Source: Bryobacteraceae bacterium (GTDB lineage Bacteria; Acidobacteriota; Terriglobia; Bryobacterales; Bryobacteraceae). From it: a stretch of DNA of 64,000 nt. Under the pieces are notes generated by a model. The model was not told where the DNA came from. It was given only the letters and a program-made list of their open reading frames with translations, and ran no database searches. Shown piece after piece: positions 2,969-64,000 of the stretch. The stretch covers positions 1 to 64,000 of the forward strand of contig JANWXD010000001.1 of assembly GCA_025055455.1 (NCBI GenBank). Reading direction: 5' to 3'. The translations under genes and the position numbers were made by a program. Every line of letters begins with the position of its first letter. Position 1 is the stretch's first letter.

Positions 2969-5074
2969 ATGAGGCTGAGAGGTCTGTGTTTTTGTGTTTG
3001 TCTGCCGCTTGCGGCGCAGACGGCGAAGATGGAGACCCTGCTGTACGGCGTCTCGTATTACCACGAATACATGCCGTACGAGCGGTTGGAAGAAGACGTG
3101 CGACTGATGGAGAAAGCGGGCATCACTGTCGTGCGCTTGGGCGAGTCCACCTGGAGCAGTTGGGAACCTCGGGACGGCGAATTCGAGTTTGCTTGGATGG
3201 AACGCATAATCGACCGGCTGCACAAAGCCGGAATCAAAGTGATTCTCGGCACTCCGACGTATTCGATCCCCCCGTGGCTGTACCGCAAGCACCCGGAGAT
3301 TCTGGTCAGCCATCTGACGGAGGCGCCGCCGCTTGCCGTGCGAACGCAGCCCACTTATCCGAGCTTTGCGCCAGGGGGCGCCTACGGGCCACGGCAGAAC
3401 ATGGATCTGACGCATCCGGTTTACCGCTACTACGCCGAGCGCATCATCCGGCACGTGGTTGCCCGTTTTAGGAATCACCCCGCGGTCATCGGCTATCAAA
3501 TTGACAATGAAACCCACCCGAACCCTTCCAACGCGCCGCACATGCATGCGGAATTCGTCTGGTATCTGAAGCGCAAATTCCAGACGCCGCAGACGCTCAA
3601 CCGCCTCTGGGGCCTCGCTTACTGGGGCCAACTGGTCCAGGACTGGGACGAGTTCCCGCCACGCCAAGGTATCCTCAACCCCGGCTACAAGCTGGAATGG
3701 GAACGATTCCAACGGCAGACGGTCACGGACTTCCTGGCATGGCAGGCGGCGATCGTGCGGCAGTACAAACGGCCGGATCAGTTCATTACGCACAACTTTG
3801 TGGGCGGCGTGCGGACCAACGTGGACCAACCCGTCATCGCCCGGCACCTGGACCTTGCGGCCGTCAACCCGTATCACGCCGTGCAGGACGAGCTCGACGG
3901 GATGGCGATCAGCCTGTCCGGCGATCTCTGCCGGTCGCTCAAAGGACAGAATTACCTTGTCACAGAGACGAATGCGCAGACGATCGGATGGGACTCCCGC
4001 ACGCAGTTTCCTCCCTACGACGGTCAGCTCCGGCTGAGTGCATACAGCCACTTCGCCTCCGGCGCCAACATGGTGGCGTACTGGCACTGGCATTCGCTCC
4101 ACTACGGGCAGGAAACGTACTGGAAAGGGGTGCTGTCGCATGATCTGGAGCCCAACCGCATCTATGCCGAAGTGACGCGCATTGCCGGCGAACTCCAGCG
4201 TGTCGGTCCCCGACTCGTCAACCTGAGGAAAAACAACGCCGTCGCGATGCTGTTGAGCGTGGACTCCTATCACGGGCTTCGGTTCATGCCCTTCGACGAT
4301 CGCGTGAACTATCTGACGGTGCTCCACCAAATGTACGGGGCGCTCTACCGGCTGAACATCGAAGTAGACTTCGTGTTCCCGGAGACGGAGGACTTCAGCC
4401 AGTACAAGGTCCTCGTCGTCCCGCCGCTATACATCGCCTCGGACGAGCTGCTCAGCAGGCTGGCGCGCTACGTCCAGGGCGGGGGCCATCTGGTGCTCTC
4501 GTTCAAGAGTGGGTTCGCCAATGAGCACTCCACCGTGCGCTGGACGCGCGCGCCCGGGCCGTTGCGGGAGGCGGCCGGCTTTTCCTATCAAGAATTCTCG
4601 AGCCTGGCCCGCCCGCTCGCGTTGAAAGGCGACCCTTACGGGGCCGGTGAAAACAACCGCGTCTCCGTGTGGGCCGAGATGATACAGCTCGAGGGCGCCA
4701 CGCCGCTGGCTTGGTACGATCATCCCTTTTTCGGCAAGTATCCGGCGCTGACGCGCCACCATTACGGCAAAGGCACGCTGACGTACCAGGGAACGTTCCT
4801 CTCCGACGAGCTTCAGGAGAAAGTGCTGGCCGAAACACTGCGGCTTGCCGGATTGTCGGGCCCGGACCAACAGCTTCCAGCACCGGTGCGCGTCAAGCGG
4901 GGCGTGAACGCGGCGGGCAGGACCGTGCGTTTCTATCTCAACTACTCCGGACAGTCCCAGAGCTTTCGGTATCCTTATGGCTCCGGGTGCGACCTCCTGA
5001 CCGGGCGCGAGATCCAATCCGGCGCTCTTGTGGCGCTCGGGCCGTGGGACTTGGCCATAATCGAAGAGCACTAA
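2969..5074 (+). CDS. GH42-family beta-galactosidase-like glycosidase, secreted
   Basis: A 701-residue protein with the full GH42 layout. There is an N-terminal signal peptide (~residues 1-17, ending LAAQ), a TIM barrel opening with GVSYYHEYMP, and the paired catalytic glutamates. The acid/base is E181 in QIDNE and the nucleophile is E333 in VTETN. A trimerisation-like flavodoxin fold follows (~400-620, LVVPPLYIASDELL) and then a small C-terminal beta domain. GH42 enzymes usually hydrolyse beta-D-galactosides or alpha-L-arabinopyranosides and are often cytoplasmic, so the signal peptide is notable. Its neighbours (isomerase, ribulokinase-like kinase, symporter) fit release and use of galactose, arabinose or fucose. 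The exact substrate is not shown by the sequence. Confidence 0.9.
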   Translation: MRLRGLCFCVCLPLAAQTAKMETLLYGVSYYHEYMPYERLEEDVRLMEKAGITVVRLGESTWSSWEPRDGEFEFAWMERIIDRLHKAGIKVILGTPTYSIPPWLYRKHPEILVSHLTEAPPLAVRTQPTYPSFAPGGAYGPRQNMDLTHPVYRYYAERIIRHVVARFRNHPAVIGYQIDNETHPNPSNAPHMHAEFVWYLKRKFQTPQTLNRLWGLAYWGQLVQDWDEFPPRQGILNPGYKLEWERFQRQTVTDFLAWQAAIVRQYKRPDQFITHNFVGGVRTNVDQPVIARHLDLAAVNPYHAVQDELDGMAISLSGDLCRSLKGQNYLVTETNAQTIGWDSRTQFPPYDGQLRLSAYSHFASGANMVAYWHWHSLHYGQETYWKGVLSHDLEPNRIYAEVTRIAGELQRVGPRLVNLRKNNAVAMLLSVDSYHGLRFMPFDDRVNYLTVLHQMYGALYRLNIEVDFVFPETEDFSQYKVLVVPPLYIASDELLSRLARYVQGGGHLVLSFKSGFANEHSTVRWTRAPGPLREAAGFSYQEFSSLARPLALKGDPYGAGENNRVSVWAEMIQLEGATPLAWYDHPFFGKYPALTRHHYGKGTLTYQGTFLSDELQEKVLAETLRLAGLSGPDQQLPAPVRVKRGVNAAGRTVRFYLNYSGQSQSFRYPYGSGCDLLTGREIQSGALVALGPWDLAIIEEH

Positions 5075-5119
5075 GCTGGGGGCTGACAAACAGCCTGAAA
5101 GGGCTTACAATCGAACCTT

Positions 5120-6529
5120 ATGCCAAAACACATGACCTTCGGCCTGATCGTCGGCAATCGGGGCTTCTTTCCGGACCATCTGGCCAAGTCCGGTCGCGAG
5201 GAAATGATCCGGGTGCTGGAGGCGGCCGGCATGGGCGTGGTCTGCCCCGGTCCGGAAGACACCAAGTTTGGCGCGGTGGAAACACGCGCAGAAGCCAAGA
5301 AGTGCGCGGAGCTGTTTCGCAAGCACCGGGATGCCATCGACGGCATCATCGTCTCGTTGCCGAACTTTGGCGACGAGCGCGCCGTGGCGGAGACGCTGCG
5401 GCTGGCGGACCTCAAGGTGCCGGTGCTGATTCAGGCGACCCCGGACACCCCGGGGCGGATGACGATCCGCGACCGCCGCGACAGTTTCTGCGGCAAGATG
5501 TCGGTGTGCAACAACCTGACGCAGTACGGCATTCCCTATTCGCTCACCAGGCTGCACACCGTCGCGCCGGACTCGGAAGCGTTTCGCAAAGACCTGGAGT
5601 GGTTCGCCGGAGTGTGCCGGGTGGTGAACGGGTTGCGTAAAGCCCGCATCGGCGCCATCGGGGCCCGTCCAGCGGCGTTCAACACCGTTCGTTACAGCGA
5701 GAAGATCCTGGAAGCCTACGGCATCGACGTCGAGACCGTGGATCTTTCCGAGATCCTGGGCCGTATCCAGCGTATGAAGGATACCGACGAGGCGGCCCAG
5801 CAGAAGCTCGCCGCCATCCGCAGCTACGTCTCCACGCAGGGCATCCCGGAGGACTCGTTGCTGAAGATGGCCAAACTCGCGGCCGTGATCGAAGGCTGGA
5901 TGAAGGAGACGGAGGTAACCATCAGCGCCGTGCAGTGCTGGACCGCTATCGAGGAATACTTCGGCGTGGTGCCCTGCACCGTGATGAGTATGATGAGCAA
6001 CCAGCTCCTGCCCAGCGCGTGCGAGGTGGACGTCTGCGGCACGGTGGCGATGTACGCCCTCGCCCTGGCTTCCGAGACGCCCAGCGCGTTGCTCGATTGG
6101 AACAACAATTACGGCAACGACCCTGATAAGGCCGTGTGCTTCCACTGCAGCAACCTGCCGAAGCATTTCTTTCAGGATTTCCGCATGGATTTTCAGGAGA
6201 TCATCGCGGGAACGGTCGGCAAGGAACGGACCTTCGGAACGGTGGTGGGCCGCGTCAAGCCCGGCCCCATGACCTACCTGCGCGTGTCCACCAACGACCG
6301 CAGAGGGGTTCTGGCCGCCTATGTCGGCGAGGGCCGGTTCACGGAAGACCCGCTCGATACCTTCGGCGGCGCCGGCGTCGTAGAGATCCCTCGCATGCAA
6401 GACTTGCTGCGCTACATTTGCGAGAACGGCTTCGAGCACCACGTCGCGGCGAATCTGTCGCATGTAGCTTCCATCGTTTACGAAGCTGGCAAGCGCTATC
6501 TGGGCTGGGAGATTTACTGGCACAAGTAG
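5120..6529 (+). CDS. L-fucose/L-arabinose isomerase family protein
   Basis: A 469-residue cytoplasmic protein. The N-terminal Rossmann-like part (TFGLIVGNRGFFP, then IDGIIVSLPNFGDE) and the C-terminal part with the cluster DWNNNYGNDPDKAVCFHCSN follow the fucose isomerase superfamily, which interconverts aldoses and ketoses with a divalent metal held by Glu, Asp and His. It is shorter than classical L-fucose isomerase (~590) and near L-arabinose isomerase (~500), so the aldose could be L-fucose, L-arabinose or another sugar. It starts 46 bp after the glycosidase and is followed 57 bp later by an FGGY kinase, a normal isomerase-kinase order for pentose or 6-deoxyhexose catabolism. Confidence 0.85.
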   Translation: MPKHMTFGLIVGNRGFFPDHLAKSGREEMIRVLEAAGMGVVCPGPEDTKFGAVETRAEAKKCAELFRKHRDAIDGIIVSLPNFGDERAVAETLRLADLKVPVLIQATPDTPGRMTIRDRRDSFCGKMSVCNNLTQYGIPYSLTRLHTVAPDSEAFRKDLEWFAGVCRVVNGLRKARIGAIGARPAAFNTVRYSEKILEAYGIDVETVDLSEILGRIQRMKDTDEAAQQKLAAIRSYVSTQGIPEDSLLKMAKLAAVIEGWMKETEVTISAVQCWTAIEEYFGVVPCTVMSMMSNQLLPSACEVDVCGTVAMYALALASETPSALLDWNNNYGNDPDKAVCFHCSNLPKHFFQDFRMDFQEIIAGTVGKERTFGTVVGRVKPGPMTYLRVSTNDRRGVLAAYVGEGRFTEDPLDTFGGAGVVEIPRMQDLLRYICENGFEHHVAANLSHVASIVYEAGKRYLGWEIYWHK

Positions 6530-6586
6530 CCGCGGGACTCGCGCTCTGCGGCGTTTGCTGGAACCCGAGAAGATCGAGGTGCAACG

Positions 6587-8176
6587 ATGGCCATTGTCGC
6601 GGGTGTTGATTTCGGCACGCTGAGCGTGCGGGTTTCGATCGTGGACAGCCGGCGGGGGAGGCTGGGCTCGGCCACCGCCGAGTATCCACTGTTTCGCAAG
6701 AAGGAGGACCCGGATCACGCCACGCAGCGCCACGAGGATCACATGCGCGCCTTCGCCGAGGCCATGCGCCAGGCGCTGGAGGTGGCGGGCGTGGACGGGC
6801 GTGCGCTCGAGGCCATCGCCCTGGACACCACCGGCTCGAGCGTGGTTCCAGTCGGCGAAGGGCTCGAACCGCTGGACGAGTACTACCTCTGGTGCGACCA
6901 CCGGGCTAAGAAGGAAGCGGCGCTGATTACCGAAGTGGCGCATCGCGAGAAGCTCCCGCATATCGAGTGGTGCGGCGGCGTCTATTCCTCCGAGTGGGGA
7001 TTTTCCAAGCTGCTGCACTGGCTGCGAAACAACCCGGACAAACGCGACCGCATGGTGACGGCCCTGGAGCACTGCGACATGGTGGCGGCGGTACTTTGCG
7101 GGATCCGCGATCTCGCCCAATTGCCGCGCAGCGTCTGCGCTGCGGGCCACAAGTGGATGTGGAACGAGAGCCTCGGCGGCCTGCCTCCGGAGGAGTTTCT
7201 CGTGAAGGTGGACCCGCTGCTGGCCGGAGTCCGGGCCAAGCTGATCGGCCGCTACGGAACCTCGGACCAGATCGCCGGGCGCCTATGCGAGGCCTGGGCG
7301 GAACGGCTGGGGCTCCGGCCCGGCATCCCGGTTCCGATCGGGGCCTTCGACGCGCACTGGGATGCCATCGGGGCCGGCATCCGCGAGGGCGACGTGGTCA
7401 ACGTGGTCGGCACCTCCACCTGCATCATGGCCATCGCGCACGAGGTGGGCCTGATCCCGGGTGTGTGCGGCATCGTGAAAGGCTCGATTCACCCGCACTA
7501 CTACGGCATCGAAGCCGGGCTTTCGGCCACGGGCGACATTTTCGACGCGGTAGCGCGCCGGGCCGGAACGACCGTAGCGAATTTATCGCAGGGGCTGGAG
7601 CGCTACCGCGCCGGACAGACCGGCCTGCTGCGCCTGACCTGGGACAACGGCGACCGCACCGTGCTCGTCAACGCCGAGCTTGGCGGCGTGACGCTCGGTT
7701 GGAACCTGACGCACAGTGCTCAGGACGAACTGTTCGCGGCGATCGAAGGCACGGCGTTCCACACCCGGGTGATCCTCGAGCGCATGGCCGAGCACGGCGT
7801 GCCGATCCGGCGCGTGATCAACGGCGGCGGCATCCCGCCCAAGAACGAGACGCTGAACCGCGTTTACGCCAACGTCTTCAACAAGCCGGTGCTGGTGCCG
7901 GAAAGCGAGGTAACCAGCCTGGGCTCGGCTATCTTTGCGTTCCTGGCGGCCGGAACCTTCAAAACCATCGAGGAGGCGCAGGACGCGCTGTGCCCGAAGT
8001 ACCGCACCGTGGCGCCGGATCCGGCGGAAAACGCCGTCTACGAGCGCCTGTATCCGCTCTACCGCAAGCTGTACTTCGGGCTGGGCCGCCCGAGCGCCGA
8101 GCCGGTCCCAGCTGGAGACGTGTTGCCCGTCCTGCGGGAGGTGGCCGAACGGGTGCGGCAGGGTGCGGGCCTCTGA
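6587..8176 (+). CDS. FGGY carbohydrate kinase, ribulokinase-like
   Basis: A 529-residue two-domain sugar kinase. The N-terminal phosphate-binding strand (AGVDFGTLSVRV), the region IALDTTGSSVVPV, the conserved DxHWDA (GAFDAHWDAIGAG) and the C-terminal nucleotide loop (RRVINGGGIPPKNE) are those of the FGGY family. The arrangement VGTSTCIM and HxYYGIEAG agrees best with AraB-type ribulokinases, which phosphorylate L-ribulose at O5. Length (~530) is slightly below AraB (~560). A GAGGTG ribosome site precedes the ATG. Its partner isomerase lies immediately upstream. Because that isomerase is of the fucose superfamily, L-fuculose or L-rhamnulose cannot be excluded as the natural substrate. Confidence 0.85.
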   Translation: MAIVAGVDFGTLSVRVSIVDSRRGRLGSATAEYPLFRKKEDPDHATQRHEDHMRAFAEAMRQALEVAGVDGRALEAIALDTTGSSVVPVGEGLEPLDEYYLWCDHRAKKEAALITEVAHREKLPHIEWCGGVYSSEWGFSKLLHWLRNNPDKRDRMVTALEHCDMVAAVLCGIRDLAQLPRSVCAAGHKWMWNESLGGLPPEEFLVKVDPLLAGVRAKLIGRYGTSDQIAGRLCEAWAERLGLRPGIPVPIGAFDAHWDAIGAGIREGDVVNVVGTSTCIMAIAHEVGLIPGVCGIVKGSIHPHYYGIEAGLSATGDIFDAVARRAGTTVANLSQGLERYRAGQTGLLRLTWDNGDRTVLVNAELGGVTLGWNLTHSAQDELFAAIEGTAFHTRVILERMAEHGVPIRRVINGGGIPPKNETLNRVYANVFNKPVLVPESEVTSLGSAIFAFLAAGTFKTIEEAQDALCPKYRTVAPDPAENAVYERLYPLYRKLYFGLGRPSAEPVPAGDVLPVLREVAERVRQGAGL

Positions 8177-61704: not shown

Positions 61705-62013
61705 ATGGAAGCCCTGGGCATGGTGGAAACCAAAGGCCTGGTCGGGGCCATCGAGGCCGCCGACGCCATGGTGAAAACGGCCAATGTGGTGTTGACCGGC
61801 AAAGAATACGTGGGCGCCGGCTACGTCATGGTGAGCGTGCGCGGCGACGTCGGCGCGGTGAAGGCCGCCACCGACGCGGGGGCGGCGGCGGCGCGGCGCG
61901 TCGGAGAGCTCATCGCCGTCCATGTGATCCCCAACCCGGACGGGGAAGTGGAGAAAATCCTGCCGAAGGCGCAGCGAGAGGGCGAAAAGGGCAAGAAGTC
62001 GGCCAAAGACTGA
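61705..62013 (+). CDS. Bacterial microcompartment hexameric shell protein (BMC-H)
   Basis: A 102-residue protein consisting of one BMC domain: [21 protein letters not shown], the pore-loop region [20 protein letters not shown], and [20 protein letters not shown]. It is of the PduA/EutM/CcmK type that tiles microcompartment facets, with a short charged tail ([12 protein letters not shown]). AGGAGG precedes the ATG by six bases. It is the first gene of an operon with the acylating aldehyde dehydrogenase 43 bp downstream. A weak -35/-10 pair (TTGTCC, 17 bases, TACCGT) lies near 61640-61668. Confidence 0.95.
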
Positions 62014-62056
62014 GCGGAGCTGAGGCAGGCGGCTCCCGGAGGCGCTGTTCTCCCCG

Positions 62057-63910
62057 ATGCCTCACGAACACGATCCCAAGGCGCTCGAGGAGGTCCATAC
62101 CAAGGTCGAGAAGGCCTACGCGGCCTGGAAACAGTATGCCTCCTGGCCCCAGGAGCGCATGGACGCTGTCGTGGAGAAGGCGGCCGAGGCCGGACGGCTC
62201 CACGCCCGCCGTCTGGCGGAAATGGCCGTCGAAGAGACGGGTTACGGCAACGTCGAAGACAAGGTCGCCAAGAACCTGCTGTGCGCTGATTTCCTCCCCC
62301 GCGCCATGCGGGGCATGAAGCTGGTCGGCTTATTGCGCGAACTGCCGGACCAGAAGATTGTCGAATACGGGGTGCCGGTGGGAGTAATCGCGGCGATCAT
62401 CCCCACGACCAACCCCACCTCCACCGCCATCTACAAGATCCTGATTTCCCTCAAGTCCGGTAACGCGGTTGTGATCAGTCCCCATCCGCGGGCCCGGCGC
62501 TGCACGTGCGAGACGGCGGAGCTGCTGTACCGCGCCGCCCTGGAGGCGGGGGCGCCCGAAGGCATCATCCAGTGCTTGACCAACCCCACGCGGGAAGCCA
62601 CCCAAGCCTTGATGCGGCATGAACGGACCGCGGTGATTCTGGCCACGGGAGGCCACGGCATCGTGCGCGCTGCGTACTCGAGCGGCAAGCCCGCCTTCGG
62701 CGTCGGTCCGGGCAACGTGGCCGTGCTCGTGGATCGGACGGCCAACATTCCCGACGCCGTCGCGAAAATCGTCCAAGGAAAGTCCTTCGATTACGGGACC
62801 GTCTGCTCGAGCGAGCAAGCGCTAGTCGCCGAACAGGCCCTGCGCGCGACGATTCTCAACGAACTCAAGCTGCGCAAGGCGCATCTGTGCACGCCGGAGC
62901 AAAAGGAAGCGCTCGGCAAGCTGCTCGTGACGCCCCAGTGGACCATCGATCCCAAATGCGTCGGCCAGTCGCCGGTAAAGCTGGCCGAGATGGCCGGATT
63001 TTCCGTTCCGCCCGATACCTCCATCCTCGTCGCAGAATTGGAGGGCGTCGGCAAGCAGCACCCGCTCTCGATGGAAAAGCTCTCTCCCGTTCTGGCGCTC
63101 TATTTTGTGAAGGACTGGCCGGCAGCCCTGGAGACGTGCGAAGCAGTGACGCGGTTCGGCGGTCTCGGCCACACGGCGGTGATTTTCTCCAAGGACGATT
63201 CGCGGATTCGGGAATTTGCGGAGCGAATTCCGGCGATGCGCATCCTCGTGAACACTCCGGCGCCGCACGGCTCGGTGGGGCTCACCACCAACGTGTTCCC
63301 CTCGATGACGTTAGGCTGCGGCGCGGCGGCCGGCAACAGCACGAGCGACAACGTGGGGCCGCAACACTTGATCAACATCAAGCGCCTGGCTTACGCCGTC
63401 CGCCAGCCGGAGGAGGCCCTGACCATTCCCAAGCCCGCGTATGCAGTGCCGACGCCGAGCCCGGGCGAGGTGGCCGTGCCGGTCGGCACCGCCCCGGCTG
63501 CGAAGTGGGATCGCCAGACCGTGATGGCCGCCGTGGAGCAATATTTGGCCCAGCGCGGCATCCGCCTGGACGGCGCGCCGGCTCCCCCGTCGTCTCCCCC
63601 GACGGGCTCTTCCACCGCCCCGGTTGCGGCCGAGGCGCTAGTGGATCGCTTTCTCGCCGCACGGCGGGCGGCCAAGACCGCCGCGTCGCAGGCGGCGCAG
63701 ACGGCACCCGTGTGCGGTTGCCCCCACACGCCCGAGGGGACGGCAGTCTCGCCGGCCATCCAGGTGGTCGACTTCGTCTGCGAGAACGACGTGCGGGAGG
63801 CGATTCGCGCCTCGCGAAAAATCCATATTGGGCCGAAGACGATTGTGACGCCGGCCGCAAGGGAGCTGGCGGATCGGCATGACGTGCTCGTCTTCACCCA
63901 GCCAACATGA
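62057..63910 (+). CDS. Microcompartment-associated acylating aldehyde dehydrogenase with long C-terminal extension
   Basis: A 617-residue protein. Residues ~15-455 are a PduP/EutE-type CoA-acylating aldehyde dehydrogenase with catalytic C250 in YGTVCSSEQ, GVGPGNVAVLVDR and the end LTTNVFPSMTLGCGAAAGN. It converts a short aldehyde and CoA to acyl-CoA with NAD. PduP and EutE have ~460 residues. The extra ~160 residues carry two amphipathic helices resembling encapsulation peptides (484-501 DRQTVMAAVEQYLAQRG; 524-545 AEALVDRFLAARRA) separated by Pro/Ser linkers, then a small domain (~567-617, DFVCENDVREAIRASRKI, GPKTIVTPAARELA). The extension probably binds the shell. Confidence 0.92.
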   Translation: MPHEHDPKALEEVHTKVEKAYAAWKQYASWPQERMDAVVEKAAEAGRLHARRLAEMAVEETGYGNVEDKVAKNLLCADFLPRAMRGMKLVGLLRELPDQKIVEYGVPVGVIAAIIPTTNPTSTAIYKILISLKSGNAVVISPHPRARRCTCETAELLYRAALEAGAPEGIIQCLTNPTREATQALMRHERTAVILATGGHGIVRAAYSSGKPAFGVGPGNVAVLVDRTANIPDAVAKIVQGKSFDYGTVCSSEQALVAEQALRATILNELKLRKAHLCTPEQKEALGKLLVTPQWTIDPKCVGQSPVKLAEMAGFSVPPDTSILVAELEGVGKQHPLSMEKLSPVLALYFVKDWPAALETCEAVTRFGGLGHTAVIFSKDDSRIREFAERIPAMRILVNTPAPHGSVGLTTNVFPSMTLGCGAAAGNSTSDNVGPQHLINIKRLAYAVRQPEEALTIPKPAYAVPTPSPGEVAVPVGTAPAAKWDRQTVMAAVEQYLAQRGIRLDGAPAPPSSPPTGSSTAPVAAEALVDRFLAARRAAKTAASQAAQTAPVCGCPHTPEGTAVSPAIQVVDFVCENDVREAIRASRKIHIGPKTIVTPAARELADRHDVLVFTQPT

Positions 63911-64000
63911 AACACAATCTGGACACACTCAGGACCGAAATCGCCGAATACCTAGCCAGCCGAGGCTTCGCGGTCTTCCACGGCCAGTCCCGGAGAGACG
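63907..64000 (+). CDS. Start of a third gene in the microcompartment operon (truncated by window end)
   Basis: ATG 63907 overlaps the aldehyde dehydrogenase stop (ATGA) and the frame stays open to the window end, giving MKHNLDTLRTEIAEYLASRG and 11 further residues. The coupling shows that it belongs to the microcompartment operon. Too short to name. Confidence 0.7.
   Translation, partial: MKHNLDTLRTEIAEYLASRGFAVFHGQSRRD

Follow-up and report, generated by a model that had tools for sequence, protein, structure and literature searches.

The first 64,000 nucleotides of contig C57 (JANWXD010000001.1) from a Bryobacteraceae bacterium genome (3.95 Mb, 98.75% complete), hereafter the window, close with a small microcompartment operon. 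It encodes a hexamer-type shell protein of the bacterial microcompartment (BMC-H) and an acylating aldehyde dehydrogenase (AldDH) that ends in a compound C-terminal tail; a third gene starts at position 63907 and overlaps the AldDH stop codon. The initial annotation, made from the window alone, had named these three coupled genes, and the PF00936 and PF00171 matches together with the overlapping open reading frame (ORF) bear it out; for the third gene, neither Pfam nor NCBIfam gave a family above its cut-off. Here, we describe the AldDH tail and an in-frame TGA that divides the same tail in one clade of relatives, and we weigh how that codon may be decoded. Coordinates are listed in Table 1.

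Table 1. Features of the window and of associated loci on other contigs of the same genome
Feature	Location	Strand	Basis or remark
BMC-H shell protein, 102 aa	61705..62013	+	PF00936, 92.4 bits
Acylating AldDH, 617 aa, compound C-terminal tail	62057..63910	+	PF00171, TIGR02518, AlphaFold2 model mb99bb7034c45
Tail helix h1, residues 486-499	63512..63553	+	AlphaFold2 helix; recurs in homologues
Tail helix h2, residues 524-541	63626..63679	+	AlphaFold2 helix; recurring VVDRFL-type stretch
Linker of AldDH tail	63680-63763	+	Low complexity
TPAAR module (putative shell-docking domain), starting at residue 570	63764..63901	+	Profile A1, AlphaFold2
Third gene (start), 163 aa	63907..64000; ends 398 bases past the window (L005:2907-3398)	+	ORF
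RnfC/PduS-like flavoprotein with 4Fe-4S dicluster domain	L008:8089-9402 (C11)		Beside tandem BMC-T
Tandem BMC-T	L008:9412-9963 (C11)		Beside RnfC/PduS-like flavoprotein
Class II aldolase	C101:164280-164804		PF00596, 168.7 bits; directly before BMC-H
RpiB with N-terminal TPAAR-like module, and adjoining DeoC	L149:982-1620 and 143-1093 (C79)	-	

A compound tail on the aldehyde dehydrogenase

The best NCBIfam match of the AldDH is TIGR02518, acetaldehyde dehydrogenase (acetylating), at 531 bits and below the cut-off of 620. The similarity stops at residue 452, which leaves the roughly 160 extra C-terminal residues that the initial annotation had pointed out. Its description of two putative encapsulation helices followed by a small domain also agrees with the AlphaFold2 prediction for the full AldDH (31 sequences), in which h1 and h2 lie within low-confidence stretches after the catalytic part and a beta-alpha-beta-alpha-beta unit at residues 570-613 is confident. 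Predicted alone, the terminal unit (here the TPAAR module, after its motif) returns the same fold with a mean pLDDT of 92.4. In the model, h1 and h2 appear as candidate encapsulation-peptide-like helices.

The TPAAR module has no significant relative in Pfam, among PDB sequences or in a Foldseek search against the PDB; the Pfam hint that did appear, PF15953 (PDU_like), was seen in 4 of 40 members with a best E-value of 0.094, below significance. In a seven-protein database, profile A1 of the module matched Escherichia coli EutQ and EutT at 14.3 bits each and the N-terminus of RpiB at 24.2 bits, with EutJ, EutE and EutP at 0.7 bits or less. The same RpiB N-terminus scored 26.1 bits at positions 21-44 in a search of the own genome, and profile-profile comparison of it with A1 gave 96.6% probability over 30 columns. 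It is the last 47 residues of the AldDH that resemble the N-termini of EutQ and EutT; the corresponding TPEAR motif stands at residue 31 of E. coli EutQ, within H1/H2 (Salmonella numbering may differ by a few). In the deletion experiments reported for the Salmonella Eut compartment, EutQ H1/H2 (residues 9-41) were assigned to the shell and H3/H4 (62-99) to the cargo, and a flexible region separates the two pairs (PMC12487888). By analogy, the AldDH tail reads as two putative cargo-type helices, a linker and a predicted shell-docking module.

The tail is not peculiar to the window gene and is common in both family and phylum. Among 237 genomes of the family, own genome included, 114 matches reach residue 608 or beyond (hand count); in a phylum sample of 247 genomes (E <= 1e-125, own genome not counted) this holds for 21 of 76 matches, also by hand count. 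The initial annotation had called the tail unusual, which these counts contradict, and had named a tail shared by all acidobacterial homologues of a described locus type as a case against its reading; the counts bear out that the tail is common, and speak to the sampled matches rather than to all homologues.

An in-frame TGA confined to one clade

In 22 of the 114 full-length family matches (query start at residue 12 or before, end at 608 or beyond; hand count), a TGA stands in frame between the helices and the module. The pattern was first seen in four named loci, all from metagenome assemblies, where the stop falls between h2 and the module and the module follows in the same frame. Extra stops occur in two genomes, a TAA in G002 and a TAG in G220. 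In the phylum sample, none of 77 matches has the TGA, and one has a TAA.

Family homologues were fetched in part (30 loci and 20 more, including all 22 TGA genomes). From the 94 loci L014-L107, we dropped L045, L049, L050, L051 and L052 as partial, L054 and L057 for want of a core match, and L041, L048, L060 and L067, in which the motif was missing by pattern; merging 8 duplicates left 75 distinct genes, 23 of them with TGA. These 23 represent 26 fetched TGA loci and include L016, from outside the 22 family TGA genomes, and L093, which was kept. One of the partial loci, L052 (DQVH01000062.1), lies on a contig labelled Desulfurococcales archaeon; its AldDH start is 46% identical to that of the window, and it may be mis-binned or transferred.

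The TGA is followed by CTG in all 23 genes. The codon directly before it specifies Ser, Gly or Thr in 23/23, with Tyr or Phe two codons upstream in 22 and Gly three codons upstream in 21. Its position varies from 9 to 26 codons past the VVDRFL-type stretch of h2, and through 12 different linker lengths the frame is always kept. In a quick tree, a single clade of 24 genes (SH-aLRT 99) contains all 23. The TGA label requires two changes on the tree, as few as in none of 500 shuffles. The exception within the clade, L101 (G003:C333), has lost h2 and the TGA together and has kept the fusion.

A pair of cysteines (CGC, CxxC or similar) recurs in the linker of many AldDH homologues; in the TGA clade, the pair precedes h2 in 17 of 23 genes, an analysis used for TGA rows only because the pattern that places h2 misplaced some of the others. 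The TGA motif was also tried as a genome-wide recoding signal and rejected: in 32 genomes, GGNTWYRSNTGACTG gave 44 matches by hand count (21 at AldDH sites, 23 elsewhere), and the control with the pattern reversed gave 35.

Conservation and selection around the TGA

The TGA CTG context is invariant, and not by chance. When the 23 genes are placed on a nucleotide tree of length 3.93, neither TGA nor CTG changes at all, compared with 7-17 changes for each of codons -6 to -1 and +2 to +5. The genuine final stop of the same genes changes six times and is TGA in 13, TAA in 6 and TAG in 4; UGA has not simply been reassigned, since it remains the real final stop in 13 of 23. Elsewhere in the genes, none of 20 all-leucine core columns is fixed as CTG, and 5 of 205 columns with an invariant residue keep a single codon.

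The sequence beyond the TGA is constrained as well. Over 33 codons of the module, median dN/dS is 0.14 in the 23 TGA genes (235 of 253 pairs usable), and in genes that lack the TGA it is 0.18 (839 of 1275 pairs usable; 51 of 52 genes, L025 left out). This is a conserved in-frame stop with constrained coding sequence beyond it. At the level of sequence, the TGA clade combines an invariant UGA-CUG, an unbroken frame and purifying selection past the stop.

How the TGA may be decoded

We lean, on balance, towards programmed readthrough of the UGA as a means of setting the amount of a shell-binding isoform, and rank it ahead of reinitiation and, in third place, selenocysteine. The AldDH would carry its own assembly adaptor: through h1 and h2 it would associate with the cargo core, and its TPAAR module would dock on the inner shell as Salmonella EutQ H1/H2 have been shown to do, an assignment that for the AldDH we infer from sequence similarity. 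No AldDH chain would be made without the module in the species of the window or in most of the family matches. In the TGA clade, the UGA-CUG between helices and module would gate the shell-docking part. Most ribosomes would stop at the UGA and release a core-only enzyme of catalytic domain and both helices, and a minority would read it as an amino acid and complete a shell-docking isoform. This minor long form could anchor the core to the shell with no need for each subunit to be attached, and the UGA gate would be a lineage-specific refinement. That UGA-CUG readthrough sets the ratio of core to shell-docking AldDH in this one clade, whose relatives are labelled Bryobacterales, seems to us evenly balanced between true and false.

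UGAC is a weak stop in bacteria, and the invariant bases of the TGA clade are UGA-CU plus a G. According to the results reported in PMC4207609, a UGA with CU behind it is enough for efficient readthrough in the fungus Ustilago, and the signal works in HeLa cells as well, giving rise to peroxisomal enzyme isoforms; in E. coli, some UGA readthrough by ordinary tRNA-Trp is described in PMC13092985.

Several points weigh against readthrough. All the evidence is comparative, and the decoding event, the isoform ratio and the binding to the shell are inferred from it. The AldDH gene of the window itself has no in-frame stop. The leakiness of UGA-CU is documented in PMC4207609 for eukaryotes. Across the 48 bases past the TGA, the 23 genes show no excess RNA structure against shuffles (mean z 0.003 with codon order shuffled, +0.54 with synonymous shuffling). 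The similarity to EutQ and EutT is short, at 14 bits in a seven-protein database whose E-values do not stand for a large search. L093 has an additional TAA at codon 27 and may be damaged or misread. Finally, some features would suit other explanations: pairing of Shine-Dalgarno type has a similar strength ahead of the CTG and ahead of the next gene, the residue following CTG is of the kind expected behind an initiator methionine, and most TGA genomes possess selenocysteine genes, with a small hairpin possible after the TGA in some of the genes.

Reinitiation, which we consider unlikely, would have ribosomes stop at the UGA and restart at the adjoining CUG, so that a split gene yields the TPAAR module as a separate protein of about 70 residues. 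Anti-Shine-Dalgarno pairing averages -5.7 kcal/mol before the CTG; random codons give -2.9 and the start of the next gene -6.2. When synonymous codons are shuffled, however, 164 of 200 shuffles pair at least as strongly, so the pairing is no stronger than the encoded residues would require. The 20 bases upstream contain GGAGG in 0 of 23 genes and GAGG in 2, and the start of the AldDH itself scores -2.4; since a true start thus shows no Shine-Dalgarno signal by the same measure, the measure is weak either way. Thr, Ala or Ser follows the CTG in 23/23 genes, compared with a 31% share of these three residues across the next 20 positions. CTG is, however, a rare start codon, and it is never swapped for ATG, GTG or TTG in the 23 genes; the next gene, in the 19 cases where it could be placed (by nearest start codon), begins with GTG or TTG at varied spacing. 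Nor does reinitiation need a UGA, yet TAA and TAG never occur at the site, and genuine stops vary. The lone outlier, L101, kept the fusion. A tally of stop codons in called ORFs was not used here, as it includes the AldDH frames themselves. A start further inside the linker or at the beginning of the module, which would free the module from the upstream frame, is considerably less probable still: an in-frame GTG stands three codons ahead of the VCE motif in 16 of 23 genes, and in 19 an ATG, GTG or TTG of some kind falls after the TGA and ahead of the motif's first codon, but 4 have no candidate at all, the frame is held through 12 linker lengths, and the invariance of TGA CTG would be left unexplained. 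Least credible of all is that nothing is recoded, the tail being that of an ordinary ACI-type AldDH whose module the TGA clade has lost and now lets decay. The tail is indeed common in family and phylum and the long product is a prediction, but the dN/dS beyond the TGA is like that of genes with an uninterrupted module, and the TGA CTG does not vary.

Selenocysteine inserted at the UGA within the linker would make the TGA genes a new selenoprotein family; we regard this as improbable, and more so than reinitiation. The genomes are largely equipped for it: SelB is over cut-off in 21 of the 22 TGA genomes, SelA reaches E <= 1e-20 in 17, and a tRNA-Sec above 53 bits is found in 13. G045, however, has the TGA and shows none of the three genes, which its sister G044 holds on three contigs, and G002, G163, G168 and G171 have the TGA and no SelA match; such absences are not proof, given incomplete genomes and a tRNA search in which 94 of some 900-2300 candidates per genome were scored. 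The one TGA-less genome of the clade, G003, fits the proposal in lacking SelA, SelB over cut-off and a clear tRNA-Sec, and its gene, L101, reads SAGPTCGLPG, with a cysteine, near the lost TGA site. Cysteine pairs are frequent in the linker, but no cysteine partner stands at a fixed distance. Six of the 23 genes (L016, L083, L088, L091, L095 and L099) show, in the predicted fold, a small hairpin that starts about 15 bases past the UGA, and L090, L093, L094 and L096 could, by eye, form one with a GG-containing loop. No SECIS-like hairpin is common to all 23, judged by the lack of excess structure and with no SECIS model run, and the 66 bases folded for L079 reach only -5.3 kcal/mol.

A microcompartment dispersed over several contigs

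The trio of BMC-H, AldDH and third gene is a stable unit. Of the distinct homologous loci, 72 have more than 400 bases of sequence ahead of the AldDH, and all 72 show a BMC-H no further than 600 bases upstream of it; the third gene lies downstream in 71 of 75. Directly after the third gene comes a recJ-like gene (named by eye), and its homologue takes the same place in 29 of the 32 distinct loci that extend far enough. The initial annotation took the trio for the left edge of a long microcompartment operon. Whole-genome searches with PF00936 and PF03319 found no other shell gene on C57; the remaining shell genes are on C101 and C11, so the operon does not lead into a larger shell cluster. The absence of further compartment genes downstream, which that annotation had set as a test of itself, applies to shell genes on this contig and not to the genome, and BMC-T, BMC-P and aldolase genes, which it had proposed to look for beyond the window, exist on other contigs.

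Four BMC-domain matches were found in the whole genome: the BMC-H on C57, a second BMC-H on C101, and the two domains of a single BMC-T on C11. On C101, three consecutive BMC-P genes (PF03319) and the PF00936 match stand in series, forming a BMC-P triplet with BMC-H, and the ORF of the class II aldolase before this BMC-H terminates in FELTRSELIALVSEAMKARA, a C-terminal helix as judged by eye. On C11, the pairing of the flavoprotein with the BMC-T suggests electron transfer across the shell.

C79 carries RpiB (PF02502, 163 bits) adjacent to DeoC (TIGR00126, 283 bits; cut-off 117). The DeoC aldolase domain is preceded by about 100 residues that begin with a helix-like stretch (by eye), and DeoC has cysteine motifs. 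With no PF00936 or PF03319 match on C79, the pair is not clustered with shell genes. It is probably a fourth locus of the same compartment, because the RpiB N-terminus resembles the small domain of the AldDH and because the AldDH and this RpiB co-occur. Among the 237 family genomes, 106 have both, 31 the AldDH only, 5 RpiB only and 95 neither (Fisher p 6e-32, not corrected for kinship, from sets typed by hand). Presence of the AldDH was set at about E < 1e-120, with G089 (2e-97) taken as absent; the 41-44% identical matches of G230 and G231, which lie in long frames and look AdhE-like by eye, were excluded. Flags of a TGA in RpiB were rejected: in the 20 loci read, the first stop is near the end of RpiB and never between module and enzyme.

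Overall, the microcompartment is scattered over at least four contigs, and the window holds its satellite AldDH locus. Its gene content, as far as sequence similarity indicates, fits most of the ACI architecture plus the enzyme pair of SPU compartments. The metabolosome most likely turns an aldehyde made by an aldolase into acyl-CoA; the AldDH substrate could be acetaldehyde, which DeoC would release from deoxyribose 5-phosphate, or a short aldehyde produced by the class II aldolase. Compartment class and substrate, which the initial annotation could not name from the fragment, are in this way narrowed by DeoC/RpiB and by the class II aldolase beside the shell genes. PduL, which it had proposed to look for, has no PF06130 match in the own genome, so this search, which did not extend to phosphotransacetylase or alcohol dehydrogenase, gave no candidate for the usual step of coenzyme A recycling. 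Inspection by eye of the ORFs around the shell genes, with no family search run, revealed no hydroxyacid dehydrogenase.

Elsewhere in the window, positions 2969-8176 hold consecutive genes for a beta-galactosidase (GH42), a fucose-isomerase-type protein (PF02952) and a ribulokinase (NF003154, 543 bits; cut-off 428). The initial annotation had tentatively drawn a sugar-aldehyde pathway from this isomerase and kinase, 55 kb away, and we found no link between them and the compartment.

Comparison with known systems

Descriptions of the ACI locus type (Sutter et al. 2021, PMC8217296) include a class II aldolase with a C-terminal encapsulation peptide, a hydroxyacid dehydrogenase, a BMC-P triplet with at least one BMC-H in the main locus, and an AldDH that is consistently found on a satellite locus. 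The present genome shares the acidobacterial host, the class II aldolase with a C-terminal helix, the main locus of BMC-P triplet and BMC-H, and the satellite AldDH. ACI was reported primarily from subdivisions 4 and 6, whereas the relatives here are labelled Bryobacterales and, by eye, the surroundings of the shell genes show no hydroxyacid dehydrogenase. In the passages on ACI in that source, neither this tail on the AldDH nor a stop codon within it is mentioned. According to the same source, DeoC and RpiB are common to all SPU compartments, in which deoxyribose phosphate gives acetaldehyde. Our genome has the same pair (pfam01791 and pfam02502) and would likewise lead from acetaldehyde to acetyl-CoA, with the difference that the pair sits on its own contig, apart from the shell genes. 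A scarcely characterised acidobacterial compartment would in this way gain deoxyribose phosphate as a candidate substrate.

The AldDH tail and EutQ, as characterised in PMC12487888, share a short segment containing TPxAR, a flexible linker and two helices, of which EutQ uses the first for the shell and the last for cargo. EutQ differs in being a separate protein with a cupin domain and an N-terminal module; in the AldDH, the adaptor parts would stand in reverse order, fused C-terminally to the cargo enzyme itself. With TPxAR modules in AldDH, RpiB, EutQ and EutT, a general shell-docking domain becomes testable, and it may help to predict or engineer cargo loading.

For the putative decoding event, a search of the literature on microcompartments and readthrough returned no title or abstract opening that describes such a case, with most subscription journals outside its coverage. 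If readthrough is correct, the 23 distinct genes would represent conserved programmed stop-codon readthrough in bacterial chromosomal genes. A parallel is CsoS2 of alpha-carboxysomes, for which PMC10484944 reports that frameshifting yields a short isoform (CsoS2A) and a long, shell-attaching isoform (CsoS2B); both are made, and the long one alone was present in isolated recombinant mini-shells. In each case, recoding would separate a short form from a long form with a shell-attaching C-terminus, by a frameshift in a scaffold protein for CsoS2 and by an in-frame UGA in a metabolic enzyme here. Readthrough would then be the stop-codon counterpart of the CsoS2 frameshift, and a second route to fixing the core-shell stoichiometry of a protein organelle. 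Similarly, the peroxisomal isoforms described in PMC4207609 combine an in-frame UGA followed by CU, a metabolic enzyme and an organelle-related extension. That system belongs to eukaryotes and a peroxisomal signal, and the AldDH tail to bacteria and, putatively, a protein-shelled compartment; by the same UGA-CU signal, readthrough of the AldDH would be the bacterial counterpart of peroxisomal readthrough.

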